This document shows positions 5,870-53,031 of a stretch of 64,000 bases of DNA, piece by piece (the first letter of the stretch is position 1; each line of letters begins with the position of its first letter). The translations under genes and the position numbers were made by a program. The stretch is from Limnochorda pilosa (lineage in GTDB: Bacteria; Bacillota; Limnochordia; Limnochordales; Limnochordaceae). Below the pieces are notes generated by a model. The model was given only the letters and a program-made list of their open reading frames with translations. It had not been told where the DNA came from and did no database searches. The stretch is taken from assembly GCF_001544015.1 (NCBI RefSeq), contig NZ_AP014924.1:1612001-1676000 (forward strand). The letters run 5' to 3'.

Positions 5870-8089
5870 ATGCCTGGCGGGAGTTCGTTTCGGGGGGTAC
5901 GTCACGTGGCAGGCACAGGGGGAGCCCAGGACGCTCAGAAGGGCCGGCGCGTCCGGATCGGCATCGACGTCGGGGGAACCTTCACCGACGCGGTGGCCAT
6001 CGATGATGGCAGCCTTGAGATCCTCGCCCAGCTCAAGATCCCGACCACCCACAGCGACGATCATGGTGTCGCCGCCGGCGTGGTCAGGGCGGTGCGCGGC
6101 GTTCTGGAGCAGGGGGAGATCGACCCGTCGGAGGTCGTCTTCATCTCCCACGGCACGACGCAGGCGACCAACGCCCTCCTGGAGGGCGACGTGGTCACGG
6201 TGGGCGTCGTCGGCATGGGGACGGGGCTCGACGGGGCGCGCGCTCGGGGCCAGACGCAGATCGAACCGATCCCCCTCGCGCAGGGCAAGGTCCTTCACCC
6301 GGTGCACACGTTCGTTGAGACCGGGAACGGCTTCGGACCTGAGCGTGTGGAGGCGGCGCTTCGATCCTTGATCGACCAGGGAGCCGAGGCGGTGGTGGCG
6401 GCGGAAGCGTACAGCGTCGACGACCCCCAGCGGGAGCTCCAGGTTCAGCAGGCGGCGCGCGAGCTGGGTCTGCCCGGAAGCTCGTCGCACGAGATCTCGA
6501 AGCGCTACGGGCTCAAGATGCGGACGCGCACGGCCGTCATCAATGCTTCCATCCTCCCCCGCATGACCCGGACCGCCGACATGACCGAGGAGAGCGTGCA
6601 GGCTGCAGGCATCGCGGCGCCGCTGATGATCATGCGCGGTGACGGTGGGTCGATGATGGTGGACGAGATGCGCCGGCGCCCCATCCTGACCCTTCTCTCG
6701 GGGCCCGCCGCCGGCGTGGCCGGTGCCCTCATGTACGCCAAGGTTTCGGACGGCCTCTTCCTGGAGGTGGGTGGCACCAGCACGGACATCTCCCTGATCA
6801 AGAACGGCCGGGTGATGGTGGACTACGCGGAGGTGGGCGGGCACCGGACCTACCTTCGCTCCCTGGATGTCCGCACGGTGGGTGTGGCCGGGGGGAGCAT
6901 GATCCGCATCCGGGAGGGGCGGATGGTGGAGGTGGGGCCGCGCAGTGCACACATCGCGGGGCTCGCCTACGCCGTCTTCTCCGAACCCGAGGAGATGGAG
7001 GGCGCGGAGCTGGAGGTCTTCGCTCCCCTCCCAGGCGACCCGGCCGAGTACGTGGCCATCCGCGCTGCCAGCGGCAAGCGATTCGCCCTGACCCTCTCGG
7101 ACGCGGCCAACCTGCTGGGGTTGGCGGCGCCGGGAGAGTACGCGCATGGGAACGTGGAGGCAGCCCGGCGTGCCTGGGGGCCGCTGGCTAGGGTCCTGGG
7201 AACGGATGTCGAGGAGGCGGCCCGCCAGGCACTGGAGCTGGCGGCCGAGAAGGTGCTGGCCCCCATCCATGCGCTCCGGAGGAAGTACGCCCTCGAGGAG
7301 TCCAAGGTGGTCCTCGTGGGCGGCGGGGGCGGCTCGGCGGCGGTGGTCCCCTACGTGGCCGGGAAGCTCGGGGTGCCGCACCGCATCGTCGAGAACGCGC
7401 CCATCATCTCCACCATCGGGGTGGCGCTGGCCATGATCCGGGAGACCATCGAGCGATCGGTGAGCAACCCGACCGAGCAGGACCTGCTCCGGATCCGGCG
7501 CGAGGCACAGGAGGCGGTGATCGGCCTGGGTGCGGAGCCGTCCACGGTGGAGGTGCAGATGGAGGTCCTGCCCGATGAGAGCCTGGTGCGGGCCGTGGCG
7601 ACGGGCGCTACCGAGCTTCGCACCGGTACGGCCCGCCGGGCGAGCCTCTCGGTGGATGCGCGCCGGGGGGTGGTGGCCCAAGGGCTCGGCGTGCCCGTGG
7701 AGGCGGTGGAGCACCTGGGTGGCAGCAGCGGACTCGACGCCTACGGCCACACCGTGGAGAAGCGCGCCCTGTTCGGCCTGCTCAAGAAGCAGGAGCAGCG
7801 GGTACAGGTTTGCGACCAGGAGGGCGTGGTCCGCCTGAAGCTCTCCCACGCGTTCACGCAGGCGGCCACGGTTGCACGAGCCCGGAGTGCTGCAACCGGG
7901 GTGATGGAGCGAGCATCCACTGTGAAGGACACGGGTCGGGTGCTGCCCAACGTCTTCGTCCTCGTCGGCTCGCGCCTCGTGGACCTGAGCGGGATCGCGG
8001 ACGAGGAGCTCATTCACTCCATGATCGAGACCGAGCTGGCGGGGCTGCCCGGTGAGACACCCGTCGTCTTCGTGGCCGAGCCGCGGTAG
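5870..8089 (+). CDS. Hydantoinase/oxoprolinase HyuA-like ATPase subunit
   Basis: A 739-residue protein of the HyuA / N-methylhydantoinase A family, which couples ATP hydrolysis to opening lactam rings or to carboxylation. The N terminus carries the actin-like phosphate motif IGIDVGGTFTDAV and then FISHGTTQATNALLEGD. A second phosphate loop GGTSTDISLI and the late VVLVGGGGGSAAVVPYVA segment are also present. A HyuB subunit is not found nearby, so the protein acts alone or with one of the TIM-barrel or FAD proteins. ATG 5870 is used; a GTG at 5906 is possible. It is probably cotranscribed with the permease and the TIM-barrel genes. The substrate is unknown. Confidence 0.85.
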   Translation: MPGGSSFRGVRHVAGTGGAQDAQKGRRVRIGIDVGGTFTDAVAIDDGSLEILAQLKIPTTHSDDHGVAAGVVRAVRGVLEQGEIDPSEVVFISHGTTQATNALLEGDVVTVGVVGMGTGLDGARARGQTQIEPIPLAQGKVLHPVHTFVETGNGFGPERVEAALRSLIDQGAEAVVAAEAYSVDDPQRELQVQQAARELGLPGSSSHEISKRYGLKMRTRTAVINASILPRMTRTADMTEESVQAAGIAAPLMIMRGDGGSMMVDEMRRRPILTLLSGPAAGVAGALMYAKVSDGLFLEVGGTSTDISLIKNGRVMVDYAEVGGHRTYLRSLDVRTVGVAGGSMIRIREGRMVEVGPRSAHIAGLAYAVFSEPEEMEGAELEVFAPLPGDPAEYVAIRAASGKRFALTLSDAANLLGLAAPGEYAHGNVEAARRAWGPLARVLGTDVEEAARQALELAAEKVLAPIHALRRKYALEESKVVLVGGGGGSAAVVPYVAGKLGVPHRIVENAPIISTIGVALAMIRETIERSVSNPTEQDLLRIRREAQEAVIGLGAEPSTVEVQMEVLPDESLVRAVATGATELRTGTARRASLSVDARRGVVAQGLGVPVEAVEHLGGSSGLDAYGHTVEKRALFGLLKKQEQRVQVCDQEGVVRLKLSHAFTQAATVARARSAATGVMERASTVKDTGRVLPNVFVLVGSRLVDLSGIADEELIHSMIETELAGLPGETPVVFVAEPR

Positions 8090-34672: not shown

Positions 34673-35977
34673 CTACGGCGGAGGCGACGTGCCTAGCTCG
34701 GGCGGTCCCGATGCCAGCATTCCGACTGCGAACTCATTGAGAGCCGCGAGTGCCTCATTCAGGGGGGCCCTCCAGCAGAGGTAAAGCGCTGCCTCGGCGG
34801 AGCCCTGAATCCACAGGGACCGAAGCTCGGGATCGGCAGAAGCGAGGAGCCGGGACCATTCGGGGAACGGTCCGGTCCTGTCCGCCCCCAGAATACCTTC
34901 CCGGAGAAGCGTGAGGGTCGCCCGGGAAGGATGGCGTGGAAAGGGGGCGACGAAGGACTCAGCCCGGTCAACGTACTCCATCGCTTGCTCGCGTCGGTCT
35001 GCCAGGACGGCGCTCTGCGCGAGCTCTTCCAGGGTGCAGGCGGCGTCGAAGCCGTCGGTCTGCACCTGCAGGCTCTCCTGCCAGAATGAGCGGGCCTCTC
35101 TCCAGTCGTCCATCCGTTTGTGGCACAGCCCCATGTTGTTCAACACGCGGGCAATGCTGCGAGGTTCGCCGTCGGCCTCATAGCGCCTCAGAATAACGCG
35201 GTGCACCTGCAAGGCGGTGTCCGGTTGACCCAGGCGCTCCAGTGCGAAGGCCTTGCCTTCGGGGACCGATTCTGCCAGCGGTGGTTCGTGCACGTGTGCA
35301 CGAATGGACTCATAGATGTCGAGCGCCGGCCGGTAGAGGCCTGCATCCAGCTGCGCGTGGGCCAGATGAATCAGGACGCGGGCGTGAAGCGGTTGGTGCG
35401 GGCGAGCCTGCCTGGCTGCAGCCTGAAGATGGCGGATGGCGCTCGTGGGTCGCCACAGGTAACGGAGAGCGATGCCTGCGAGTGCATGCGCTTCGGCCTG
35501 ACACTCCCAGTCCGAGTGCTGGTTGGCGAGGACCGCGGCCTGACGAGAGCTATCCAGCGCTTCCTCGTACCGATCCTGGTCCAGCGCAAGCAGCCCTTTC
35601 TCTAGAGCAATCCAAGCGGACCAGGGGTTACTATGGTCGACCTTCTCTTCTTCTAGATGACGTACGAGCACCCTTGCGGCCGTCTGATGGCCCGCTTCGC
35701 GAAGGAGGCGGACGAGGAGGTACCGTTGGCCGGCACGACGCTGACATCGGGCCCACAGGGGGAGGATCCTCGGGAGATCGAGGTGGAGCCGGCCGGCGAG
35801 GTACATGAGACGGTCGGCTGTAGGGCACGCCTTTCCTTTTTCGAGCTTGCATAGGGCCGGAGCACTTAGGTCGGCGCCTGCCACGTCGTAGAGAGACAGC
35901 CCAGCGGCGCGACGGGCTTCGTGCAGTAAGGTACCCAGTGCAGCCAGGTCCTGTTCGTTAACCCGTGGGCTAGGCAT
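34673..35977 (-). CDS. XRE-type helix-turn-helix regulator with TPR domain
   Basis: A 434-residue regulator. Residues 8-65 are a Cro/CI-type helix-turn-helix (LGTLLHEARRAAGLSLYDVAGADLSAPALCKLEKGK). The remaining ~350 residues are a run of helical repeats typical of TPRs (AWIALEKGLLALDQDRYEEALDSSRQA, ARVLNNMGLCHKRMDDWREA and others). This design is used by peptide- or metabolite-sensing regulators of Bacillota. ATG 35977 is preceded by GGAGGG. It is divergent from the radical SAM gene across ~335 bases and is the natural candidate to control the RiPP operon. The TPR part may bind a peptide, perhaps the product itself. Confidence 0.82.
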   Translation of the reverse strand: MPSPRVNEQDLAALGTLLHEARRAAGLSLYDVAGADLSAPALCKLEKGKACPTADRLMYLAGRLHLDLPRILPLWARCQRRAGQRYLLVRLLREAGHQTAARVLVRHLEEEKVDHSNPWSAWIALEKGLLALDQDRYEEALDSSRQAAVLANQHSDWECQAEAHALAGIALRYLWRPTSAIRHLQAAARQARPHQPLHARVLIHLAHAQLDAGLYRPALDIYESIRAHVHEPPLAESVPEGKAFALERLGQPDTALQVHRVILRRYEADGEPRSIARVLNNMGLCHKRMDDWREARSFWQESLQVQTDGFDAACTLEELAQSAVLADRREQAMEYVDRAESFVAPFPRHPSRATLTLLREGILGADRTGPFPEWSRLLASADPELRSLWIQGSAEAALYLCWRAPLNEALAALNEFAVGMLASGPPELGTSPPP

Positions 35978-36296
35978 CGTGCATTCCCTCCGCGAAGTTA
36001 ACAGGTTGATACCCGCAACAATCGAAACCTTGCACCAATCGGGGGCGTTGGGAGGTGTATGGGGGACGGTGCGCAGCGATTCGCGATCGTGGCTGGGTGG
36101 CATCGTCTGAGTCCTTTTTATCGTAGCTGCCTCTCCCGTACCTTGCAAGTGGCGGGATGATCCCCAGTCATCAGGCAAACTTAGGGTGGTGTGCCGTTCG
36201 TCAGCCATTGACCCGGATCGACCAATCAGGCCTCCAATGGGTTCGAGGTCACATCAGCGGTTCGGGGGGGAACCTGCACTTGCTCGCAGGTTCTTT
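35978..36296. other. Divergent intergenic region of the RiPP locus
   Basis: About 320 bases between the regulator and the radical SAM gene. No gene is supported; a frame extending the radical SAM reading frame upstream lacks a ribosome site. It should hold the promoters of both genes. A TTGACC occurs near 36210, but I see no good -10 partner at 17 bases. Base composition is lower in GC than in the surrounding genome. Confidence 0.4.
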
Positions 36297-36312
36297 AGGA
36301 GGAGGCGTTCAA

Positions 36313-37758
36313 ATGGATCGTAACGCGCGCGATCGTCAACTTCGACCATCCAAGTTTCTTACTCTCACTACCACCGAGGATGGCCGTCTGCTGTTGCACA
36401 ACTCCCTGACAGGTGCAATAGCGGCAATAGCCCCCGCGCAGGCTGAGCAAGCCCGCCATTTTCTGCGAAGCAAAGCAGCGGATCTCCCGCGTGAGACCAA
36501 CCTAGAAGAGCAGCTTGCAGAGGCAGGATTCCTGGTGCCCATCGGAACTGACGAAGACGGTTCGGCGATGGACCAATACTTGGCCAAGTACGGTACCAGT
36601 CATTTACAATTGATTATACTGCCGACTGAACAGTGTAACTTTCGGTGTGTGTACTGCTACGAATCGTTCTCGCGTGGTGCCATGCCATCTGAAGTCCAGA
36701 AAGCATTGAAGGAATGCGTCGCCAGACAAGTTAACCTAGAGCGATTGAATATCACGTGGTTCGGTGGCGAACCTCTGGTAGCGGCGGACGTCGTTGTCAA
36801 TCTTCAACAGTACTTCTCGCAACACTGCAAGCGTCACGGTATCGAGTTCTCTTCGACGCTTGTGTCGAACGGTTACCTGTTGACGCCAGCTGTGGCTGAC
36901 AAGTTGCTCCACCTTGGCCTTTCGCATCTCCAGATAACCCTTGATGGTACCGCAGCAGAGCATAACAAGCGTCGCCATCTCATGGATGGTGGTGAGACTT
37001 TCGAGAAGATCATGGTGAACTTACGCTACCTCAAGCAACGTACCGAGCGAGTGAGAGTGACGCTTAGGCACAATTACGATAGAAGGAATCTCTCACATGC
37101 ACCAGAGTTTATAGAACTTATGGCACGCGAATTCGCCGACGATCCTCGATTTGAATTCGTCTTCGAACCCATAGGCAAGTGGGGAGGCCAGAACGACTCC
37201 GTACTTGACGTCTACGAAGGCAAGGAACGGGCAGCGACCAAGATCCACCTACAGAGACTGGCGAAGGAGGCCGGATTCCGAAACGCCTATCAAGCCCAGG
37301 TGCTGCGGCCCAATGGGTTTGTTTGCTATGCTGCAGACCCAAGATCCTTTGTGGTCGGGTCCGACGGAACACTGTATAAGTGCACCGTAGAGCTCGACAA
37401 GAACGAACGCAACGTCGTTGGCCGGTTAACGCAAGACGGCAAGTTAATGGTGGACTGGCAGAAGGTTGCGCTTTGGACTGAGTCTAATGGTGCCTGGCGG
37501 CAGAACTCCAAATGCACTGGCTGCTTCTTTCTCCCAGCGTGCTTCGGCGCGATATGCCCAAAGGAGTGGCTGGACAGAGCAGACGTGACGTGCCCTCCGG
37601 AGAAGCGGTTTATAGGGGAAACGCTCCGCACCATAGCGCTGAGGAGCGTGAATGACGGCGCGCAGCGGAGCGGGTCCGCCGCAGTGGAACGCGGCGCTGG
37701 CGCCTCCTCCCAGACGGAGCTGGCTGGGGGAAAGCTTTCGGGCCGGCCCAATTCCTAG
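36313..37758 (+). CDS. Radical SAM/SPASM peptide-modifying enzyme
   Basis: A 481-residue radical SAM maturase. Residues 1-75 form the N-terminal domain common to peptide maturases (FLTLTTTEDGRLLLHNSLTG; LAEAGFLVP), likely for leader binding. The cluster motif CNFRCVYC has cysteines at 108, 112 and 115, followed by TWFGGEPL and LQITLDG. The C-terminal SPASM domain has VCYAADPRSFVVGSDGTLYKC and CTGCFFLPACFGAIC (from Cys401) plus a last cysteine in VTCPPEK, ligands for two auxiliary clusters. ATG 36313 follows AGGAGGAGG. The precursor gene starts 19 bases after its stop. Expected chemistry is carbon-radical crosslinking, such as a thioether, on the precursor; the bond type is unknown. Confidence 0.9.
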   Translation: MDRNARDRQLRPSKFLTLTTTEDGRLLLHNSLTGAIAAIAPAQAEQARHFLRSKAADLPRETNLEEQLAEAGFLVPIGTDEDGSAMDQYLAKYGTSHLQLIILPTEQCNFRCVYCYESFSRGAMPSEVQKALKECVARQVNLERLNITWFGGEPLVAADVVVNLQQYFSQHCKRHGIEFSSTLVSNGYLLTPAVADKLLHLGLSHLQITLDGTAAEHNKRRHLMDGGETFEKIMVNLRYLKQRTERVRVTLRHNYDRRNLSHAPEFIELMAREFADDPRFEFVFEPIGKWGGQNDSVLDVYEGKERAATKIHLQRLAKEAGFRNAYQAQVLRPNGFVCYAADPRSFVVGSDGTLYKCTVELDKNERNVVGRLTQDGKLMVDWQKVALWTESNGAWRQNSKCTGCFFLPACFGAICPKEWLDRADVTCPPEKRFIGETLRTIALRSVNDGAQRSGSAAVERGAGASSQTELAGGKLSGRPNS

Positions 37759-37777
37759 AGCGAAGGGAGGGAACATC

Positions 37778-37852
37778 ATGGAATGGATCCAGAAGCCTGA
37801 TGCCGCCTTGGATCCGCCGCAGCATTTCGACTCCAACTGCCACAACTGCTAG
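37778..37852 (+). CDS. RiPP precursor peptide, 24 residues, ending in Cys
   Basis: A very short gene with strong support from context. It has an AAGGGAGG ribosome site seven bases before ATG 37778, and it sits alone between the radical SAM maturase and the flavoprotein decarboxylase. The peptide starts MEWIQKPDAALDPP and ends FDSNCHNC. It has two cysteines, one of them the very last residue, as required by LanD/EpiD-type decarboxylases. The Pro-Pro pair in the middle would be a natural cleavage site for the downstream prolyl-oligopeptidase-type protease, leaving a ten-residue core beginning with Gln. No signal peptide. It is unlike any precursor I know. Confidence 0.75.
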   Translation: MEWIQKPDAALDPPQHFDSNCHNC

Positions 37853-37857
37853 GCAAA

Positions 37858-37883
37858 GCCGGGGGCGGTACGTCGCCCCCGGC
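37858..37883 (+). promoter_or_regulatory. Strong intergenic hairpin after the precursor gene
   Basis: A perfect ten-base stem GCCGGGGGCG/CGCCCCCGGC with loop GTACGT, five bases after the precursor stop. There is no T tract, so it is more likely a partial attenuator or mRNA stabiliser than a full terminator. This would raise precursor mRNA relative to the downstream enzymes, a common device in RiPP operons. Confidence 0.7.
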
Positions 37884-37940
37884 TACTTACGGCTCAACGT
37901 ATTACTGTACTCTCTGATCATGTGGAAGGGAGTCGGTAGG

Positions 37941-38588
37941 ATGAGAGAAAGGATGTGTGACCGTCTGCTTGTCGGCGTGGCGGGCTCAGTGCGCGCAGTC
38001 CAACTTCCAGAATACCTGCAGGTATTGCGAGCAGAGTTCACCGAACAGATCAAAATCATAGCGACGCGCTCGGCTAGCAGGATGATACCTCCGAGAATTC
38101 TGGAACTGTATGCAGACGACAGGGTGTTCGTTGACCTGTGGGATCGGTCACCCACTGTGAAGGTACCGCACGTCAATCTCGTCGAGTGGGCAGAGATGTT
38201 TCTCATTTTACCTGCCACAGCATCAATCATTGGCAAGGCTGCAAACGGAATTGGGGATGACCTCCTGTCCACTGCCGTCATCATGGCACGGGCACCGGTT
38301 CTCTTCGCGCCAGCAATGAACGCTGACATGTGGAACAGCGCCGCGGTTCAGAGGAATGTCGCGCAACTTGTACGCGACGGAAACTACGTGGTTCAGCCAT
38401 CGCTTGGGCTCTCAGTAACTTCTAGCCAAAACAAGGTACATGGTGTGGGTCCAGGTATTGAGAATCTCCTTAGACAGCTTCAACACTTCTTCCTGCATAG
38501 GCTACAGGTAGCGCAACTCTCGTCGTCCAGTCTGGTCGCGCATCGCGCCCTGGAGAATGAGTTGTCCGCCGTATCTGATAAAGGCTAG
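37941..38588 (+). CDS. LanD/EpiD-type flavoprotein cysteine decarboxylase (HFCD family)
   Basis: A 215-residue FMN protein of the homo-oligomeric flavin-containing Cys decarboxylase family. It contains RLLVGVAGSVRAVQLPEYL, the active-site histidine in VPHVNLVEWA (about His77), and LPATASIIGKAANGIGDDLL, which replaces the usual PASANT motif with a Dfp-like variant. The substrate motif PAMNADMW is also present. Relatives oxidatively decarboxylate a C-terminal cysteine to an enethiol. The precursor just upstream ends in Cys, so this is the likely substrate. ATG 37941 is chosen because AAGGGAG lies eight bases ahead; an ATG at 37920 is possible. This is not the coenzyme A enzyme, which would be fused to CoaB. 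Confidence 0.87.
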   Translation: MRERMCDRLLVGVAGSVRAVQLPEYLQVLRAEFTEQIKIIATRSASRMIPPRILELYADDRVFVDLWDRSPTVKVPHVNLVEWAEMFLILPATASIIGKAANGIGDDLLSTAVIMARAPVLFAPAMNADMWNSAAVQRNVAQLVRDGNYVVQPSLGLSVTSSQNKVHGVGPGIENLLRQLQHFFLHRLQVAQLSSSSLVAHRALENELSAVSDKG

Positions 38589-38715
38589 CTGGCGTGCCGT
38601 GTTGACATCCGCCACATGAGCATAGCTGTGATGCCGTTGCCACGCGTACACGGATGACCTACCGCGCTGGTGGTATGGCCTGACTCCACTCACGGACGGC
38701 CCAAGGAGGTGCGCG

Positions 38716-40503
38716 ATGGGACCACTCGGGATCCTCTCAACGCTGGAGCAACTACCGGCGGTCTACAGCCCTGCGCTATCACACGACGGGACGAAGCTAG
38801 CTTACTACGCGGATTTCACCGGCAGAATGGAACTCTACGTAGCAGACGTCCGTTCCAATAGCGCGCCAGTGCAGATCACGAGCGGTGAACTGCCAGACGT
38901 CGTGGAGGCACCCCTCAGGTGGATGCCGGACGGTGCTGGAATACTGATCGTGAAGCGCCTTGGCGCGAGTCCCGAGTCCAGCGCGTGGTGTATCGACCTT
39001 CGTACGCGCGAGATGCGGCAGGTTGCAGAGGAGATGCCCGCAGGTACCCCGGGACGCGTATCTCCCGAAGGCCGGTTTCTCATATGGAATGCAGCATTGG
39101 AAGTGTACATCGCTGACATCGAATCCGGTGAACTCTGTCGTATAGGTCAGGGCATGGCTTTCATGCAGGCGTCGGATTGGTCGCGGATCGGTGGTGGGGT
39201 CTACGTTACCGCGAGCGACAGCGAGCCCCTCCGTAATAGAGACGTGTATTACGTGCAGCTGGACGGGTGTCGTGCGACTGCAATGCAAAAGGTGTACTCT
39301 TCTGGGCCGGAAACGATGGACCTCTCTGGCCGAGTCTCGCACGACGGCCGATGGCTGGCAATCACTACACGTCGTTCAGACAGAACGTGGGCCGTACTGG
39401 CCGATCTTGTAACTGGTAGCACGACCACAGTCACAGGGGGAACGCTGGACGCGTTCCCATTGACGTTTTCACGTGACGGGAGCAGGATGCTCGTGCTAGA
39501 AGAAAGCCCAGTGACCGTACGCCTGGCTGAGATAGCTCTTGCCACGCGTAGGCGCAGAGTTATTGCGACGGGCAAAGGTGTTGTGTACGATGCAGATTAC
39601 ACGGCAGATAACGACGTAGTGTATGTGGCGTCAGATCCTCGCCATGCGCCTCGAGTCATGTTGCACGATTCCGCTGGGCACGCGGCCAGCGCTCTAGTTG
39701 ACCCTACGCGGGATGTGCCTGGGGCCTTTCCAACCGTCGCCACACGCAAGGCCAGGTTTACCTCCGAGAACTTGTGCATCGAAGGGCTGCTCCACGCGCC
39801 TGCGGAGCGCGCAGGAGATAGACGGCCAGCCGTAGTATTGCTGCATGGCGGGCCGTCAGCGCGTGATCGTCTCGAATGGAATGCGCTGGTTCAACTCATT
39901 GTGGGAAGTGGTTTCACGGTATTGCAGGTAAACTATCGCGGCTCAGCAGGTTACGGAGATGCATTTGAGCACTTGAACGTCCGCGACGTTGGCGGTGGTG
40001 ACGCGCGCGACGTTGCTGCAGCAGCTCGGTGGCTCCAAGATATGCCTGGAATTGACGGGACCAGGTTGATCTGTGTAGGTGGATCCTACGGAGGGTACTT
40101 AGTCTACCGCCAGTTGACCCGTTATTCCGATCTTTGGGCTGCAGGAATTGCGTGGATGGGGATTACTGACTGGACGTCCCTCTATTACGAGACAACAGAC
40201 GCAGTAAGGCTATACTGCCGTGCACTATTCGGGGGAGGTCCTTCAGAACTACCGCAGATGTACATGGAAGCCTCGCCAATCCACGACGTGGCTCGCTTGA
40301 CGGCGCCTATTCTCATGATCCATGGCAAGAACGATCCCCGCGTACCGGTTACCCAGGCTCGGAGGTTTAGGGATAGGCTTCTGGAGCTAGGACGTCACAA
40401 TGTTTGTTACGTAGAACTGGACGAGGGGCACGGGTTAACCGCTCGGGCTGCTCGGATTCGCATGTACAAGAAGATAGCTGAGTTCTTGCACTCGTTGCTA
40501 TAG
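38716..40503 (+). CDS. S9-family (prolyl oligopeptidase-type) serine peptidase
   Basis: A 595-residue cytoplasmic protein. Residues 1-340 form a WD40-like beta-propeller (SHDGTKLAYYADFTGRMELY, SPEGRFLIWNAALEVYIADI). The rest is an alpha/beta hydrolase with catalytic Ser457 in GGSYGGY, Asp540 in HGKNDPRVP and His572 in DEGHGLT. It has no signal peptide. ATG 38716 follows AAGGAGGT. S9 enzymes such as FlaP remove leaders from lanthipeptides by cutting after proline. Here the precursor has a Pro-Pro pair before its Cys-containing tail. It could alternatively be a self-protection hydrolase. A TTGACA at 38602 may add an internal promoter. Confidence 0.9.
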   Translation: MGPLGILSTLEQLPAVYSPALSHDGTKLAYYADFTGRMELYVADVRSNSAPVQITSGELPDVVEAPLRWMPDGAGILIVKRLGASPESSAWCIDLRTREMRQVAEEMPAGTPGRVSPEGRFLIWNAALEVYIADIESGELCRIGQGMAFMQASDWSRIGGGVYVTASDSEPLRNRDVYYVQLDGCRATAMQKVYSSGPETMDLSGRVSHDGRWLAITTRRSDRTWAVLADLVTGSTTTVTGGTLDAFPLTFSRDGSRMLVLEESPVTVRLAEIALATRRRRVIATGKGVVYDADYTADNDVVYVASDPRHAPRVMLHDSAGHAASALVDPTRDVPGAFPTVATRKARFTSENLCIEGLLHAPAERAGDRRPAVVLLHGGPSARDRLEWNALVQLIVGSGFTVLQVNYRGSAGYGDAFEHLNVRDVGGGDARDVAAAARWLQDMPGIDGTRLICVGGSYGGYLVYRQLTRYSDLWAAGIAWMGITDWTSLYYETTDAVRLYCRALFGGGPSELPQMYMEASPIHDVARLTAPILMIHGKNDPRVPVTQARRFRDRLLELGRHNVCYVELDEGHGLTARAARIRMYKKIAEFLHSLL

Positions 40504-40779
40504 CGGCTACCCGGATCCTGGTGGTTGTACGGGCTGGGTGACTTACGGGCGCGCAAGGTGGTTGTTTCCCACGGCAAGGGCTGGATGCCTGAACCGATAG
40601 GCACGCGTGCAACCTTGGCCGTCGGTCGAGAGTGTTGCGTTACGGACGCTTGCTGGCTGCTGCTGTGTTATGGCGCCTGTCGCGTTGACAGTGAAGCTGC
40701 GGGGAAGCAGGGAGCGTCCTGGGGGTTAGTGGGTCATACATGGAACGATGATCCGGTCGGTGTACCCGAGGGGAGACAT

Positions 40780-42060
40780 ATGACCGAGAATACGCAGACC
40801 CCGGTGTGGTCGCTACGCAACTACCCGTCGGTTGCCTGGCTATGGTCCGGAGCAAGCGTTTCCGTTTTCGGTGATGCGCTCCGGAGGATGGCGGTGCTCC
40901 TGACGGTTTACGCCGTAACGGATGGGTCCGGCATGGCTGTCGCCGGGATCACACTGGCCGAGATCGTTCCAATGCTTGCCCTCGGCTTGATTGCAGGCGT
41001 GTACGTCGATCGTTGGGACAGGCGTAGAGCTATCATTCTTGGCAACACGGTGCGAGGCTTGCTCAGTCTAGCACTCGTCCTTGCCGCCCGTTCACAATCG
41101 CTTGGGCTGGTGTACGTCGTCATCGCGGCTTCTGAAGCTGCAGGTGCTGTCGTCCAGCCTGCCATGACTGCGATCGTTCCACAATTGGTGCCGGTTGCCC
41201 ACCTGGCACAGGTGAACACCCTTTTCGTTCTGTCCCGCCAGTTCAGCCTGTTGATAGGCCCTGTGGTTGCAGCCACGGCGTACCGTGTCATCGGAGCCGA
41301 ACTGACCTTCCTCGTGGACGGGGGGACTTTCTTCGTAGGAGCCGGAACAGCGTTGGCTATTCGGCGCCCGAGGGAGGTTGAGAAACAGGCGGGCTCCGAT
41401 GAGACGGTGGGTTCGACCTGGTGGCGGGATTTCTTGAACGGCTTGGCACGCGTTCGGGGAGATCGTCTTGTGATGGCGCTTCTGGCGACCATCGGACTCC
41501 AGTCTCTCGGTGCTGGCATTAACAACACGGTGATGATCGTTTTCATCAATCGCGGGCTTGGAAGGGCCGCTAGCGATATCGCGTGGCTCAGTTCAGCGAA
41601 CGGGTTGGCACAGATCCTGGCGGCCACGGTAGTAGCCCCGCTCATCCGGCGGCGCGGAACCGCGGGTGTGCTTGCAGGAGCTACGATTACCATGCTTGCC
41701 GGGAATGCGATCTTAGCGGGCTCTTGGTCTCTTTTCGTCCTGATTGTTGGGGTCTTGATCACGGCGCTAGGGAACAGCCCCTTTACGATCGTGCATACTA
41801 CCGTCCTCCAGCAGGCTGTCGGACCGGAATACCTTGGGAGGGTGCAGGGAAGCCTCGGAACCCTAGCGGCTGTTCTCTTCATGGCCGCCAGTTCGGCTTC
41901 TGGCGTAGCTGTTGACTACGTGGCAGCGCGGAGCCTGTTGATAGTATCAGCGGGAATCAGTGCCTCGCTCGTGGTGGTCACGTTGACGCGCATCGTTCCA
42001 GCGCTTAGGGCTGCCAAGCGTCTTTCTTCTGGAAGGTCGCCCCTACGAGCGGATGACTAG
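40780..42060 (+). CDS. MFS exporter of the DHA3 type
   Basis: A 426-residue transporter with 12 predicted membrane helices. The N terminus reads WSLRNYPSVAWLWSGASVSVFGDALRRMAVLLTVYAVT, and loop 2-3 carries the GVYVDRWDRRRAIILGN motif A. Loop 8-9 has a second motif-A-like element (VAPLIRRRGTAG). This is typical of drug and antibiotic exporters of the MefA/DHA3 group. ATG 40780 follows GAGGGGAG; the in-frame upstream extension has no ribosome site. It is the last gene of the RiPP operon and should export the mature product and provide immunity. Confidence 0.88.
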   Translation: MTENTQTPVWSLRNYPSVAWLWSGASVSVFGDALRRMAVLLTVYAVTDGSGMAVAGITLAEIVPMLALGLIAGVYVDRWDRRRAIILGNTVRGLLSLALVLAARSQSLGLVYVVIAASEAAGAVVQPAMTAIVPQLVPVAHLAQVNTLFVLSRQFSLLIGPVVAATAYRVIGAELTFLVDGGTFFVGAGTALAIRRPREVEKQAGSDETVGSTWWRDFLNGLARVRGDRLVMALLATIGLQSLGAGINNTVMIVFINRGLGRAASDIAWLSSANGLAQILAATVVAPLIRRRGTAGVLAGATITMLAGNAILAGSWSLFVLIVGVLITALGNSPFTIVHTTVLQQAVGPEYLGRVQGSLGTLAAVLFMAASSASGVAVDYVAARSLLIVSAGISASLVVVTLTRIVPALRAAKRLSSGRSPLRADD

Positions 42061-42352: not shown

Positions 42353-44100
42353 GCGCGACGACCAGGCCGCAGCCCAAAAGGGCGAAGGGATCGAGCCTCG
42401 TTACGGTTATGGACCGAGGGCCGACGGTGTCGGAATGGCCGGAAGGCAACAGTACGCGCTCGGTAGGGCGAGAGCGCGGGAGACCTCGGCGGGGTCGGAG
42501 ACCGCGGCATGGCGGAAATCGAGATAGTACGGGAACCGGGAGGCCTCCCGGCGTCGCGCGCCGCGCGTACGCCCCACCCGACAGGCGAAGCCGAAGGGCG
42601 GCGGAAGCGCCGGGCGGGCGCCCTCTGGGCGCGGAGCCCCTCATAGTACTCCGAGCGCGGGAGAGCCGCGCACATGGGGAAGGAGGGGCACGGTCTCAAG
42701 CGTCCAGGACCCAATCGTCTCCACGCAGAGGGAGGACACCGATGAACGAGGGACTGGAACGCATCGCGCAGAGGGCCAAGGCGGACCGGAAGTGCCGGTT
42801 TACCGCCCTGGCCCACCACCTCACGGAGGACTTCCTCCGTGAGACCTGGCAGGGGCTCAACCGGAAGGGAGCCCCCGGAGTCGATCGTGCGACGGCAGCA
42901 GAGTACGCCGCGAACCTGGACACGAACCTGAAAAGGCTCGTCGACGGAATGAAGCGGCGCTACTACCGGGCACCCCACGTGCGCAGGGTCTACATACCGA
43001 AAGCGGGCAACCCGGCGAAGCTCAGACCGCTCGGGGTACCGACGGTCGAAGATCGCCTCCTTCAGGCGGCGGTCGCTCGCATCCTGTCGGCGATCTACGA
43101 GGCGGACTTCCTGGAGTGCTCCTACGGCTTCAGACCGGGGCGGACGGCGCATCAGGCGCTGGCCGCCCTCCGCAACGAGGTGATGCTCGGCAGGGCCCAG
43201 TGGGTCTACGAGGCTGACATTCGCGGCTTCTTCGACCACCTGGACCACGACTGGCTGATGCGCATGCTCGATCTCCGGGTCGGCGACCCGTGGATCCTAC
43301 GCCTCGTCCGCAAGTGGTTGAGCGCTGGGATCCTCGACCACGGGCAGGTGACGGTGCCAGAGGAGGGCACCCCGCAAGGGGGACCGATCTCGCCGATCCT
43401 GGCCAACGTCTACCTGCACTATGCCCTCGACCTCTGGTTCGAGAAGGTCGCGCGACCGCGCTGCGTGGGGAAGGCGACCCTGATCCGCTTCGCCGATGAC
43501 TTCGTCGTCCTCTTCCAGAGCGAGAAGGACGCCAGGCGATTCGCGGCGGCCTTGCCGGCGCGGCTGGCGAAGTTCAACCTCACGCTCGCCGAAGAGAAGA
43601 CGAACCTGCTGCCCTTTGGGCGGCGGCACTGGCGGCGCGGGCAGAGCCACCCGTACCACTTCGACTTCCTCGGATTCCGCCACCACCTCGGGACGGATCG
43701 CAAGGGCCGCATGGCGGTCGTGCGCATCCCGTCGCCGAAGAGCGTGCGGAAGTTCCTCGCGGAAGTGAAGGAGTGGCTCAGGCAGCACATGCACGACCGA
43801 CCGCAGGACCAGCAGGGCGCGCTGGCAAGAAAGCTCCAGGGCTTCTACCAGTACTTCAGCCTCTGGCGCACGTATCGGAAACTCTCCGTCGTGCGGCGAG
43901 AAGTGCTGAGGCTCTGGAAGCGCATACTGGAGCGCCGTAGCCAACGCGGTGCCCGAACATGGGCGCGCTGGGAGCGGCACCCGTGGTTCACCCTACCGGT
44001 GCCAAAGCTCCTGCACAGGACCGTTTAGCGCGAGAGATCGGGGAGCCCGGTGCGGGAAATCCGCACGCCGGGTTCTGAGGGGGAGGACGGGCCCAAGTCG
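42353..44100 (+). mobile_element. Group II intron with intron-encoded reverse transcriptase
   Basis: A self-splicing retroelement. The 3' RNA part has a textbook domain V hairpin at 44043-44075, with GAGCCCGG pairing to CCGGGTTC around a GGGAAATCC-type loop and the catalytic AGC triad. This is followed by a purine-rich stretch expected for domain VI. The reverse transcriptase sits in the domain IV position. The 5' end is probably near 42353 (GCGCGACG, followed by AGCCCAAAAGGGCGAAGGG), but neither end is proven, and the domain VI branch site is not clear. It sits between the RiPP exporter and an IS element. Confidence 0.75.
42742..44028 (+). CDS. ltrA: Group II intron reverse transcriptase/maturase
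   Basis: A 428-residue reverse transcriptase with maturase domain, which helps the intron splice and copies it into new sites. The RT blocks are LRPLGVPTVEDRLLQ, YGFRPGRTAHQAL, ADIRGFFDHLDHDWL, EEGTPQGGPISPILANVYLH and the catalytic box IRFADDFVVLF (FADD instead of YADD). The maturase domain X has FDFLGFRHH and the final LARKLQGFYQYFS...WERHP-F segment. No HNH endonuclease is present, as in class C and related introns. ATG 42742 follows AGGGAGG. The domain V hairpin lies 15 bases after the stop. Confidence 0.95.
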   Translation: MNEGLERIAQRAKADRKCRFTALAHHLTEDFLRETWQGLNRKGAPGVDRATAAEYAANLDTNLKRLVDGMKRRYYRAPHVRRVYIPKAGNPAKLRPLGVPTVEDRLLQAAVARILSAIYEADFLECSYGFRPGRTAHQALAALRNEVMLGRAQWVYEADIRGFFDHLDHDWLMRMLDLRVGDPWILRLVRKWLSAGILDHGQVTVPEEGTPQGGPISPILANVYLHYALDLWFEKVARPRCVGKATLIRFADDFVVLFQSEKDARRFAAALPARLAKFNLTLAEEKTNLLPFGRRHWRRGQSHPYHFDFLGFRHHLGTDRKGRMAVVRIPSPKSVRKFLAEVKEWLRQHMHDRPQDQQGALARKLQGFYQYFSLWRTYRKLSVVRREVLRLWKRILERRSQRGARTWARWERHPWFTLPVPKLLHRTV

Positions 44101-44365
44101 CCATGCCGGTTCACCAAGGGCACCGCGCCGAAAGGCGCGGTAACGGAGAATGGTGCTATGGCTAAAGCGGCGAGGCCCGCCTCTACCCACCCACCCTCTT
44201 TTGGCAGGAATCGAGTCGTTTTGCGGTGAATTGAGGGCAAGGCCCCGAATCGTTATTCGAACCTTGCCGCGAGCAGCGCGACTTTTGCAATTGGAGCTTC
44301 GGACGGGCCAACAGGATCCGGGCGGCCGGGTGCGAAGCCTCTCCCTGGAAAGCGAGGGAGCGCCC

Positions 44366-46084
44366 TTGGAGCCGAAACGGGAGCGGCTGGTGGTTCGCCA
44401 GGGTGGTGCGCCCGTCCTGCTCGCCCGGGTCTGCCGGCAGCTGCGCATCCGCCGCATCGTCAATGCCATGGTCGAGTGGGACCCCAGGCAGTGCAAGGTC
44501 TCGCCTGGCACGCTCGTCGTCGCGCTCATCCTCAACATGCTGGTCGCCCGTGAGCCGCTTTACACAGTGAAGGAGTTCTACCGCCGGAGGGACCTGGGGC
44601 TGCTCTTCGAGGAGCCGGTGGAGGTAGATGCCCTCAACGACGACGCCCTGGGGCGGACGCTGGACCGGCTGGCCGCCATCGACCTGCCCCAGCTCGTCCA
44701 GAGCGTGGGGCTTTCGGCGGTCCACCTGGGCGAGATGGAGGTCCGCTCCGTCCACGCCGATACCACATCGGTCTCCGTATACGGCGAGTTCGAGCCCACG
44801 GTGGGGGATGAGAAGTTCGTGGAGGCCCACCCCGAGAAGCGGCTGCTGAAGATCACCCACGGCCACAGCAAGCAGCGCCGTCCGGACCTCAAGCAGTTCA
44901 TCTCGGGTCTGATCGTCTCGAAGCAAGGCGTTCCGCTCATGGGGACCATCGGGGACGGGAACCTGAGCGACAAGGTGTGGAATCGTGAGATGATCGAAAG
45001 CCTGGAGCGGAGCTTCCTGGATCCCCGCTCGGTCGCCTACGTGGTGGACTCGAGCCTGGTGACCGTGAAGAACCTCCAGCGGATGGACCAATCGAAGGTC
45101 CGCTTCATCTCCCGGCTCCCCGAGACGTTCAAGGCGGCGGGCGAGGTGAGGGCGAAGGCCTTCGTCGAGAACCGGTGGCAGCCGATCGGGAGGCTCGCCC
45201 GGACCCGGTGGAACGGGGCGTTCTACCACGCGGTCTCCTACCGCCACGAGCTGGCGGGCGGCACCTACCGGCTCACCGTGGTCCGCTCCTCGTCGCTGGA
45301 CAAGCGGAAGGAGAAGAAGCTCGAGCGGCTCATCCGGACCGAGCAAGAGGCGATGAAGCGGGCAGCCAAGGAGCTGATGGGGCAGCGCTTCAACTGCCAG
45401 GCGGACGCCGAGGCCGCCCTGGCGGCCTTCCAGAAGGCCCACGAGGACGCTCTCCACACCACCCGAGGGCTCGTCGTCGCCTACACCGAAGAAAAGCGGC
45501 CCCGAGGCCGGCCACGCAAGGACGCGGTCTACCCCAAGCAGACCCACTACCAGGTGGAGATCCGCCTCTTCGCACCGAGCGAGGAGGCCAAGAAGGCGTG
45601 GCTCGAGCGGGAGAGCGCCTTCGTCTTGATCAGCAATCTGCCTGAGGACAAGTGGAGCGATGCCGCGCTCCTCGAAGAGTACAAGGGCCAGACCCAAGTG
45701 GAGCAGGGGTTCCGGGTTTACAAACACCCGATCGTGGACGACGGGATCTTCCTCAAGAGCACGCGGCGGGTGGAGGCCTTCGCCTACGTGGCCACTCTGG
45801 CGCTGATGGTGGCGGCCTTCCTGGAGTACCGGGTACGCCAGGAGCTCCAGAAGACCGAGACGAAGAAGCTCCGCCTGCTTCGCGGTGCCCGGGTGACCGA
45901 CAGCCCCACCAGCCTGGCGCTCCTGGAGGAGATCGACTACATCCCTGTCCTGGGAAGCCTCACCCCCGAAGGCTACAGCCGTTATGCAGACGTTGCCGAC
46001 GACCTCCCCGAAGAGCATCTGGAGATCCTCCGGCTGGCCGGTTTCGGGCCTGAGATCTATTTCGAACCGCTGGTTTCGAATTGA
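44366..46084 (+). CDS. IS1634-type transposase
   Basis: A 572-residue DDE transposase of the IS1634 (IS4-like) group. An N-terminal DUF4277-like region (IVNAMVEWDPRQCKVSPGTLV) precedes the catalytic core, with acidic residues in VHADTTSVSVYG, YVVDSSLVT and LLEEYKGQTQVEQGFRVYK (the last carries the Y..E box). The full catalytic core is intact, so the element may be active. TTG 44366 behind GAGGGAG is the likely start; the frame is open further upstream. I could not define its terminal inverted repeats by eye. Only ~270 bases separate it from the group II intron domain V. Confidence 0.88.
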   Translation: MEPKRERLVVRQGGAPVLLARVCRQLRIRRIVNAMVEWDPRQCKVSPGTLVVALILNMLVAREPLYTVKEFYRRRDLGLLFEEPVEVDALNDDALGRTLDRLAAIDLPQLVQSVGLSAVHLGEMEVRSVHADTTSVSVYGEFEPTVGDEKFVEAHPEKRLLKITHGHSKQRRPDLKQFISGLIVSKQGVPLMGTIGDGNLSDKVWNREMIESLERSFLDPRSVAYVVDSSLVTVKNLQRMDQSKVRFISRLPETFKAAGEVRAKAFVENRWQPIGRLARTRWNGAFYHAVSYRHELAGGTYRLTVVRSSSLDKRKEKKLERLIRTEQEAMKRAAKELMGQRFNCQADAEAALAAFQKAHEDALHTTRGLVVAYTEEKRPRGRPRKDAVYPKQTHYQVEIRLFAPSEEAKKAWLERESAFVLISNLPEDKWSDAALLEEYKGQTQVEQGFRVYKHPIVDDGIFLKSTRRVEAFAYVATLALMVAAFLEYRVRQELQKTETKKLRLLRGARVTDSPTSLALLEEIDYIPVLGSLTPEGYSRYADVADDLPEEHLEILRLAGFGPEIYFEPLVSN

Positions 46085-51712: not shown

Positions 51713-51770
51713 GTAGACATGGTGAAGACCCGTGACCATCGGCAACCGCCGGGGCAAGGAGGTCTACGCC

Positions 51771-52589
51771 GTGGGGTTCGTCACCATCGCAGAGGCGACG
51801 CGCCGGCTGGGCATTAGCCGGGCCACCCTCTACCGTTGGGCCAGAGCGGGGCGTCTGACGCTGCACAAGGTGGGCCCTCGCGCCACGCGCGTCAAGGAGG
51901 AAGAGGTGCAGCGGCTGGAGGAGGGTGCGCGCCCTGTCTACCCCAGGCCACCGTCACACGGCGGGTTCGTGGCCGAAGCGAACAGGGTGGGCGTCCGTTC
52001 GCTCGGCGAGCCCGACGAGGACGATCTGATGTGGATGGAAGAAGGTCTGGAGGACCTCCCACCGTACGACTGGGGTCCCGAGGGTGTGCCGCCCATACAC
52101 CCGATTCGACACGTCCCCTGGATCGCACCGGGGTCTCCTACCGTAACGGGGGTCTTCTCGGCCCTCCGTACAGCGCTCGCGGCTGAGGAGGATGTTGCCT
52201 TCGCATACCTCTTCGGCTCAATCGCCAAGGGACGGGTACGTCGTGAGAGCGACGTGGACGTGGCCGTCTGGCTGGCTGAAGGAAACCGCCGACGAGCGGT
52301 TGCAGATCCGGAGGAGACGCGGCTGGCCCTCGAAGGGAAGTTCGAACGGGCCCTGGGGCGCGAGGCCGATGTGGTCCTCTTGAACGACGCTCCCTTGGAT
52401 CTGGTCCAGAACATCCTCGATATAGGGATCCTTTTCCATTGCTCCGACGAGGCCGCCCGGCACGCGTTCTACGTTCGGCACGCGCAACGCTACGTGGACA
52501 TGGCCTACGCGCGCGCCGTTTTCGATCAGGCCATGCTCCGGCGGATTCGGGAGGGGACCTTCGGTGGTGGAGGAAGGCACCGTTCGTAG
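51771..52589 (+). CDS. HTH-MntA-type nucleotidyltransferase fusion (antitoxin)
   Basis: A 272-residue two-domain protein. The N-terminal ~50 residues are an excisionase/MerR-like helix-turn-helix (FVTIAEATRRLGISRATLYRWARAGRL). A ~65-residue Pro-rich linker follows. The C-terminal part is a minimal nucleotidyltransferase with FGSIAKGRVRRESDVDVAVW, the GSx10DxD motif (G149, S150, D161, D163), and VVLLNDAPLDLVQNIL. MntA proteins neutralise HepT by adding AMP to its tyrosine. The start GTG 51771 has AAGGAGG eight bases upstream. The fused DNA-binding domain suggests it also represses its own operon. It overlaps the HepT gene by 26 bases. Confidence 0.88.
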   Translation: MGFVTIAEATRRLGISRATLYRWARAGRLTLHKVGPRATRVKEEEVQRLEEGARPVYPRPPSHGGFVAEANRVGVRSLGEPDEDDLMWMEEGLEDLPPYDWGPEGVPPIHPIRHVPWIAPGSPTVTGVFSALRTALAAEEDVAFAYLFGSIAKGRVRRESDVDVAVWLAEGNRRRAVADPEETRLALEGKFERALGREADVVLLNDAPLDLVQNILDIGILFHCSDEAARHAFYVRHAQRYVDMAYARAVFDQAMLRRIREGTFGGGGRHRS

Positions 52590-53031
52590 GCTGTTGCGGG
52601 TCATCGAGAAGCGGCTGGCGCGCCTCGAGAAGCTGGTGGGGACACCGTTGGAGGCCTACCTGGCGGACATGGACCTCCAGGATGTGGTGGAGCGTAATCT
52701 CGAGCTGGTCATCCAGGCGTGCCTCGACCTGGGGATCCATGTCCTGGCCGATCGTGCTTCGGCCCCACCCGAGACCCATCGCGCCGTCTTTCGCCTGCTC
52801 GTCGACGAGGGCGTGGTCGACCCCGAGCTGGGTGGGCGCCTGGAAGCGATGGCGGGATTCCGCAACAGGCTCGTGCACGAGTACGCCGACCTGCTCCCCG
52901 AGAAGGTTCACGGGTACTTGGCGGAACTCGACGACGTCAGGCGATACGTACGGGAGGTGGTGGATCACCTGACGGCCGAAGGGCTCTTTGGAGGAGCAGA
53001 CCGCTCCGAGCCTGGAAACTCCCCGAGGTAA
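52564..53031 (+). CDS. hepT: HepT-like RNase toxin (DUF86)
   Basis: A 155-residue all-helical HEPN nuclease. The active-site motif Rx4HxY is intact as RNRLVHEY (Arg100, His105, Tyr107), and DLQDVVERNLELVIQACLDLG and FRLLVDEGVV are typical family segments. HepT toxins cleave RNA as dimers and are silenced when MntA adenylylates the motif tyrosine. GTG 52564 with GGGAGGGG upstream overlaps the antitoxin gene, the standard coupled arrangement. The system is intact and probably functional, serving plasmid or island stability or phage defence. Confidence 0.9.
   Translation: MVEEGTVRRLLRVIEKRLARLEKLVGTPLEAYLADMDLQDVVERNLELVIQACLDLGIHVLADRASAPPETHRAVFRLLVDEGVVDPELGGRLEAMAGFRNRLVHEYADLLPEKVHGYLAELDDVRRYVREVVDHLTAEGLFGGADRSEPGNSPR

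Follow-up and report, generated by a model that had tools for sequence, protein, structure and literature searches.

The locus at positions 34673–42060 of the analysed DNA of Limnochorda pilosa is best read as a RiPP cluster, as the initial annotation had proposed, and judged from its sequences it probably belongs to those RiPPs in which a radical SAM enzyme and a LanD-type flavoprotein give rise to S-[2-aminovinyl]-3-carbamoylcysteine (AviCamCys). The window, i.e. the whole stretch of 64,000 nucleotides that was analysed, corresponds to positions 1612001–1676000 of the 3.8 Mb single-contig genome. Within it, a divergent HTH-TPR regulator gene is followed by genes for a radical SAM/SPASM enzyme, a 24-residue peptide, an HFCD flavoprotein, an S9 peptidase and an MFS protein (Table 1). 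Open reading frames, domain searches and motifs confirm this previously noted gene string, and all six genes are intact.

Table 1. Features of the Limnochorda pilosa cluster, in positions of the window.
Feature	Positions	Strand	Evidence and remarks
HTH + TPR regulator	34673–35977	-	Pfam TPR_12 3.3e-16; weak HTH_31/HTH_3 matches; divergent
Radical SAM/SPASM peptide maturase, CteB-like	36313–37758	+	Radical_SAM 6.9e-18
Precursor peptide MEWIQKPDAALDPPQHFDSNCHNC, 24 aa	37778–37852	+	GGGAGGG site upstream; conserved WI...N...C type
Strong GC hairpin, 11-bp stem	37856–37885	+	directly 3' of precursor stop
LanD-type HFCD, predicted Cys decarboxylase	37941–38588	+	Flavoprotein 2.9e-23
S9 (prolyl oligopeptidase family) peptidase, candidate leader protease	38716–40503	+	Peptidase_S9 4.3e-42
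MFS exporter (predicted)	40780–42060	+	MFS_1 5.5e-27

The genes from the radical SAM enzyme to the MFS protein have a GC content of 54–60%, compared with 69% for the whole window. Directly downstream of the cluster (42409–46084) lies a reverse transcriptase gene (RVT_1), likely of the group II intron type, followed by a DUF4277 gene, which is probably an IS transposase. The low GC content, in combination with the RVT_1 gene and the probable transposase, suggests that the cluster was gained horizontally. Elsewhere in the window, at 51732–53031, an HTH nucleotidyltransferase gene is situated beside a HepT-like ribonuclease gene, and the two look like an MNT/HEPN toxin–antitoxin pair.

The frame of the 24-residue peptide begins 19 nt past the stop codon of the radical SAM gene, behind the GGGAGGG site, and its product MEWIQKPDAALDPPQHFDSNCHNC ends in the tail NCHNC. 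A Cys-terminal small peptide is likewise found beside the radical SAM gene in five related loci, which supports the earlier assignment of the 24-mer as precursor. These core peptides comprise MQAKQIRWIVKPVQASRPGTRPNTNVNCLC in Calidithermus (L046), MQWIQEAEIPSFGPPKQINPGCNFATGC in a Ktedonobacteraceae MAG (L047), MTWIAKAKAVGALTEPTNGNCGIC in Actinoplanes (L048), and, from a single Micromonosporaceae genome that holds two clusters (L188 and L189), MVWISEGSSGSMAQEQTANNNCGIC, MVWISEGSDGTLVTKSTGKNNCGIC and MEWIVEISSEPAHRTYDNGNCVC. All are 23–30 residues long, carry an N-terminal WI and a C-terminal Cys, and always adjoin the radical SAM gene. GC hairpins like that of the window also follow the precursor in L046, L047, L048, L188, L189 and L079. 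Dinucleotide shuffles of the gap between the radical SAM and HFCD genes (3000 per region, for the window and the five related loci) yielded a frame of 20–40 residues that begins close to a WI, ends in Cys and has Asn 3–5 positions ahead of that Cys once in 3000 for the window and never in 3000 at each of the related loci, so that such frames exceed what chance would produce.

More distant clusters also combine radical SAM and HFCD genes with Cys-terminal peptides: MKKALKKPQAVVVANVQAYDNEGCNNCWC in Tumebacillus flagellatus, with the homologous MKKSLKKPQAVVVANVQAYDNENCNNCWC in another genome, and two peptides with the tails NVVAC and NIIAC in Longirhabdus. For a second type of Tumebacillus cluster (L068, L171), pairwise comparison of short frames revealed no conserved precursor; in these clusters (L068, 2797–5961) the radical SAM and HFCD genes are accompanied by two TldD/PmbA-like genes. 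The precursor set accordingly comprises 11 peptides, seven from core clusters (including the window), two of the Tumebacillus type and two from Longirhabdus. Every one of them has an Asn at -3, -4 or -5 from the terminal Cys, and although the exact position varies, this Asn and the terminal Cys are the sole tail features common to all 11. Ser and Thr are absent from the last nine residues of four of these precursors.

Related radical SAM enzymes were searched in GTDB contigs by means of an alignment that included two Deinococcus plasmid homologues, together with two short peptide patterns. The contig scan gave 80 loci, seven of which have an HFCD gene near the radical SAM gene; in L115, an eighth locus, the match is more distant. 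The whole-genome search covered 1932 genomes, and the broader genome search contributed the Micromonosporaceae genome with its two clusters. The additions made by searching the Ktedonobacteria, Actinomycetes, Deinococcota, Bacilli, Micromonosporaceae and Paenibacillales comprised one genome with core clusters and one with the Tumebacillus types. A scan of genome contigs with the single radical SAM protein found no relative, viral scans found nothing, and the nearest radical SAM enzymes in the sample of the organism's own phylum (L003–L008) occur without an HFCD. The radical SAM and HFCD neighbourhood, which the initial annotation had proposed to look for in other genomes, recurs in Calidithermus, the Ktedonobacteraceae MAG and Micromonosporaceae. 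The set conserved in L046, L047, L048, L188 and L189 consists of the radical SAM enzyme, the Cys-terminal peptide, the HFCD and an MFS gene, the latter following the HFCD gene in each case. Compared with C. roseus (L046), Calidithermus chliarophilus (L045, 7650–8300) lacks about 211 nt of the HFCD gene, which is disrupted by this deletion; the remainder of the cluster is 99.8% identical.

The flavoprotein is a standalone protein of 215 residues that displays His77 and the motif PAMNADMW and has no ligase domain. His77, the PxMNxxM clamp (P124, M126, N127 and M130) and a QRN motif are invariant across seven HFCD homologues. The closest solved structures by sequence are SpaF (7cfu, 8.4e-31) and MrsD (5e-26), followed by CoaBC (2.8e-21) and EpiD, and the predicted structure has MrsD, SpaF and EpiD as its top matches, the structural alignment with SpaF showing 40% identity. 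In the tree, the HFCDs of the clusters group with a Priestia LanD, apart from 17 CoaBC domains, with a support of 100/100. A separate CoaBC is encoded elsewhere in the organism's own genome by a frame of 453 residues, and all six related genomes likewise have a long CoaBC frame of their own. Taken together, the clade, the closest structures and the separate CoaBC argue strongly against a housekeeping role and uphold the LanD-type identity originally given to the flavoprotein. The lack of the Cys158 motif of E. coli CoaC was dropped as a test for LanD-type function, since this Cys is likewise missing from the CoaBCs of the class. The window enzyme shares with EpiD, MrsD, TvaF and SpaF the fold, His77, the PxMNxxMW clamp and, as predicted here, a C-terminal Cys substrate; in the pathways of these enzymes, however, the enethiol meets a Dha or Dhb made by a dehydratase, whereas the cluster contains no Ser/Thr dehydratase.

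The radical SAM enzyme carries Cys108, Cys112 and Cys115 of the CxxxCxxC motif and the auxiliary-cluster residues Cys338, Cys357, Cys401, Cys404, Cys410, Cys415 and Cys427, and all ten cysteines are invariant across 15 homologues. It falls outside every curated NCBIfam equivalog, all scores being well under the cut-off (209 of 525 bits for TIGR04463, 184 of 600 for Clo7bot, 153 of 400 for geopeptide and 102 of 340 for PapB). A structural model (pLDDT 80) aligns over residues 13–446 with CteB (5why; Z 25.6, r.m.s.d. of 4.9 over 389 residues). Like CteB, the enzyme has an N-terminal domain, which aligns with that of CteB, and a short precursor adjoins its gene; by analogy, this domain, in place of the leader-binding domain of CteB, may bind the leader. 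The radical SAM core and the SPASM cysteines are shared with the maturases of ranthipeptides/SCIFF, PapB, Clo7bot and TIGR04463, but unlike CteB-type maturases the window enzyme is partnered by an HFCD and by a Cys-terminal core peptide containing Asn, in addition to its NCBIfam scores lying far below the cut-offs.

In the radical SAM tree, the window and the core loci form one clade (SH-aLRT 100). Pairing with an HFCD is seen in two or more parts of the tree, the enzymes of Tumebacillus and Longirhabdus being located elsewhere than the core clade. Actinobacterial sister enzymes (L146, L147), which have no HFCD and stand beside other uncharacterised genes, are preceded by short frames ending in Cys (L146, 5581–5661, ...INIIC; L147, reverse complement, 6068–6136, ...IDFGC). 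In Paenibacillus, Bacillaceae and Proteiniclasticum (L049, L050, L053, L061, L067, L070 and L090), Cys-free peptides of 27–29 residues with the common tail PGNLK/S or PGSLK lie just behind the radical SAM gene and possibly represent a further RiPP family. As related radical SAM enzymes are found beside Cys-free peptides, the chemistry of the enzyme family is not fixed. A further relative, in Deinococcus sp. KNUC1210 (L040, 7045–9149), is accompanied by a luciferase-like (LLM) oxidoreductase, with lantibiotic dehydratase genes nearby; the same arrangement is seen, with poorer annotation, in L039 (7012–9293).

By its name, 3-carbamoylcysteine is asparagine with sulfur on its β-carbon. Deduced from the residue name, Asn would be the coupling partner in AviCamCys. 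As stated in PMC11162475, citing Cheng et al. 2023, flavoproteins can work with radical SAM enzymes to make AviCamCys; the original report is given there as Cheng, Huang, Duan and Liu, Angew Chem 2023, e202308733. The window shares with that system a radical SAM enzyme and a LanD-type flavoprotein, here encoded together, and a Cys-terminal ribosomal peptide as their predicted substrate, and the Asn located 3–5 residues ahead of the terminal Cys in all 11 precursors would be available for the coupling. Features of the present family are the N-terminal WI, a second Cys that often adjoins Asn (NCxxC, NCxC) and, in the window, the S9 peptidase. The conservation of Asn was noticed after the name AviCamCys was known and is therefore a consistency check rather than a blind prediction; it holds in all precursors, which were gathered by other criteria or found afterwards (L188, L189). 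The Asn rule in every precursor and the 2023 precedent together make it probable that the window belongs among pathways of this kind. Since the radical SAM and LanD pair had been reported in 2023 (PMC11162475), the description as a candidate new RiPP class was too strong, and the statement that no characterised pathway has this gene set does not hold for its central enzymes.

The following course of events is proposed and, as a whole, has a good chance of being correct. The leader of the 24-mer (MEWI.K...) would be bound by the N-terminal domain of the radical SAM enzyme, and the HFCD, as its clade and motifs imply, would oxidatively decarboxylate the C-terminal Cys24 to an enethiol. The radical SAM/SPASM enzyme would then couple the enethiol sulfur to the β-carbon of the Asn 3–5 residues upstream, most likely Asn20, which spacing makes preferable to Asn23. 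The conserved Asn and the 2023 precedent point to an AviCamCys macrocycle as the product, with a net change of -48.02 Da. From the position of the genes, a protease, here probably the S9 enzyme, would cut off the leader and the MFS protein would export the product. The crosslink in the NCHNC tail that was postulated initially is better read as a bond between Asn20 and Cys24, because the tails of all 11 precursors have, besides the terminal Cys, no residue in common other than the Asn at -3 to -5. The inner Cys21 may form a second link, stay free or be metal-bound. Conceivably, though this is unlikely, one radical SAM enzyme makes two links on NC(x)xC, enethiol to Asn and inner Cys to another carbon, resulting in a bicyclic C-terminus not yet described.

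The radical SAM enzyme might instead act apart from the HFCD and form a ranthipeptide- or sactipeptide-type thioether at Cys21, leaving the Cys24 enethiol free or otherwise used. An inner Cys is present in 9 of 11 precursors, the nearest match of the model is CteB, an enzyme that makes thioethers with Cys, and PapB, a ranthipeptide maturase, is matched weakly (NF047865, 2.7e-29). However, both Longirhabdus precursors have the terminal Cys alone, and yet the radical SAM enzyme, the HFCD and Asn at -4 are retained; moreover, according to PMC12291118, a C-terminal enethiol is unstable and hydrolyses easily. Separate action of the two enzymes is accordingly considered rather unlikely. Far less probable still is a classical AviCys, in which a Ser or Thr dehydrated by an enzyme encoded elsewhere would receive the enethiol. 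Ser19 of the window peptide, at -5, has a legal spacing for AviCys, but Ser/Thr positions vary in the family and the four precursors without these residues in the last nine positions mean that dehydratase-made AviCys cannot explain the family. The cluster contains no dehydratase, and a search with a positive control found no LanC-like gene in the organism's genome; a search of the genome for LanB was empty, as were its controls. The earlier proposal that an AviCys-like end arises by radical chemistry without a dehydratase is plausible. Kintamdin and class V lanthipeptides also pair an HFCD with a second protein that controls cyclisation; their partner is kinase-like, whereas that of the window is a radical SAM enzyme in a cluster devoid of dehydration machinery.

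The NCBIfam models, which give 128.7 bits for CoaBC and 32.8 for CypD, both under the cut-off, speak for the flavoprotein being a second phosphopantothenoylcysteine decarboxylase and the 24-residue frame spurious or unrelated to it. In view of the organism's own CoaBC, the tree separation, the missing ligase domain and the Cys-terminal peptide conserved in five related loci, this is hardly credible. With regard to the use of the product, HTH and TPR domains in one protein are typical of peptide-sensing RRNPP regulators, and the regulator gene is divergent from that of the radical SAM enzyme, so that the product could be mainly a signalling peptide for this regulator instead of an exported antibiotic or metal binder. 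Such a role, which is compatible with the AviCamCys chemistry, appears improbable, as regulators of this type were not observed next to the related clusters and the regulator gene, whose start was set by a GGAGGG site, has a GC content (0.65) between those of cluster and genome. Because the regulator is not common to the related loci, its place in the gene set is the least secure.

The S9 peptidase displays the triad Ser457, Asp540 and His572. Among the other core clusters, an S9 gene accompanies only that of Calidithermus (L046), and it belongs to another S9 subtype, one that has a classical N-terminal propeller; no protease was recognised next to the remaining core clusters, and distant clusters carry M16, S8 or TldD/PmbA-type genes. 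A fixed role of S9 enzymes as leader proteases therefore finds no support in the family. The same applies to the suggested cleavage after Pro-Pro, which was rejected as a common family trait: Pro-Pro occurs in two of the seven core precursors, those of the window and of L047, and the latter has no adjoining S9 gene.

The pairing of radical SAM and LanD-type enzymes, represented by one 2023 report as cited in PMC11162475, is now a family that spans Bacillota, Deinococcota, Chloroflexota and Actinomycetota and can be recognised by its precursor, WI...N(x)C. Radical coupling to an enethiol can be tested directly by means of the Asn rule and the precursors free of Ser and Thr. Both also allow such clusters to be found by genome mining, whereas searches that require Ser or Thr before the terminal Cys, as used in PMC11162475, can miss them.
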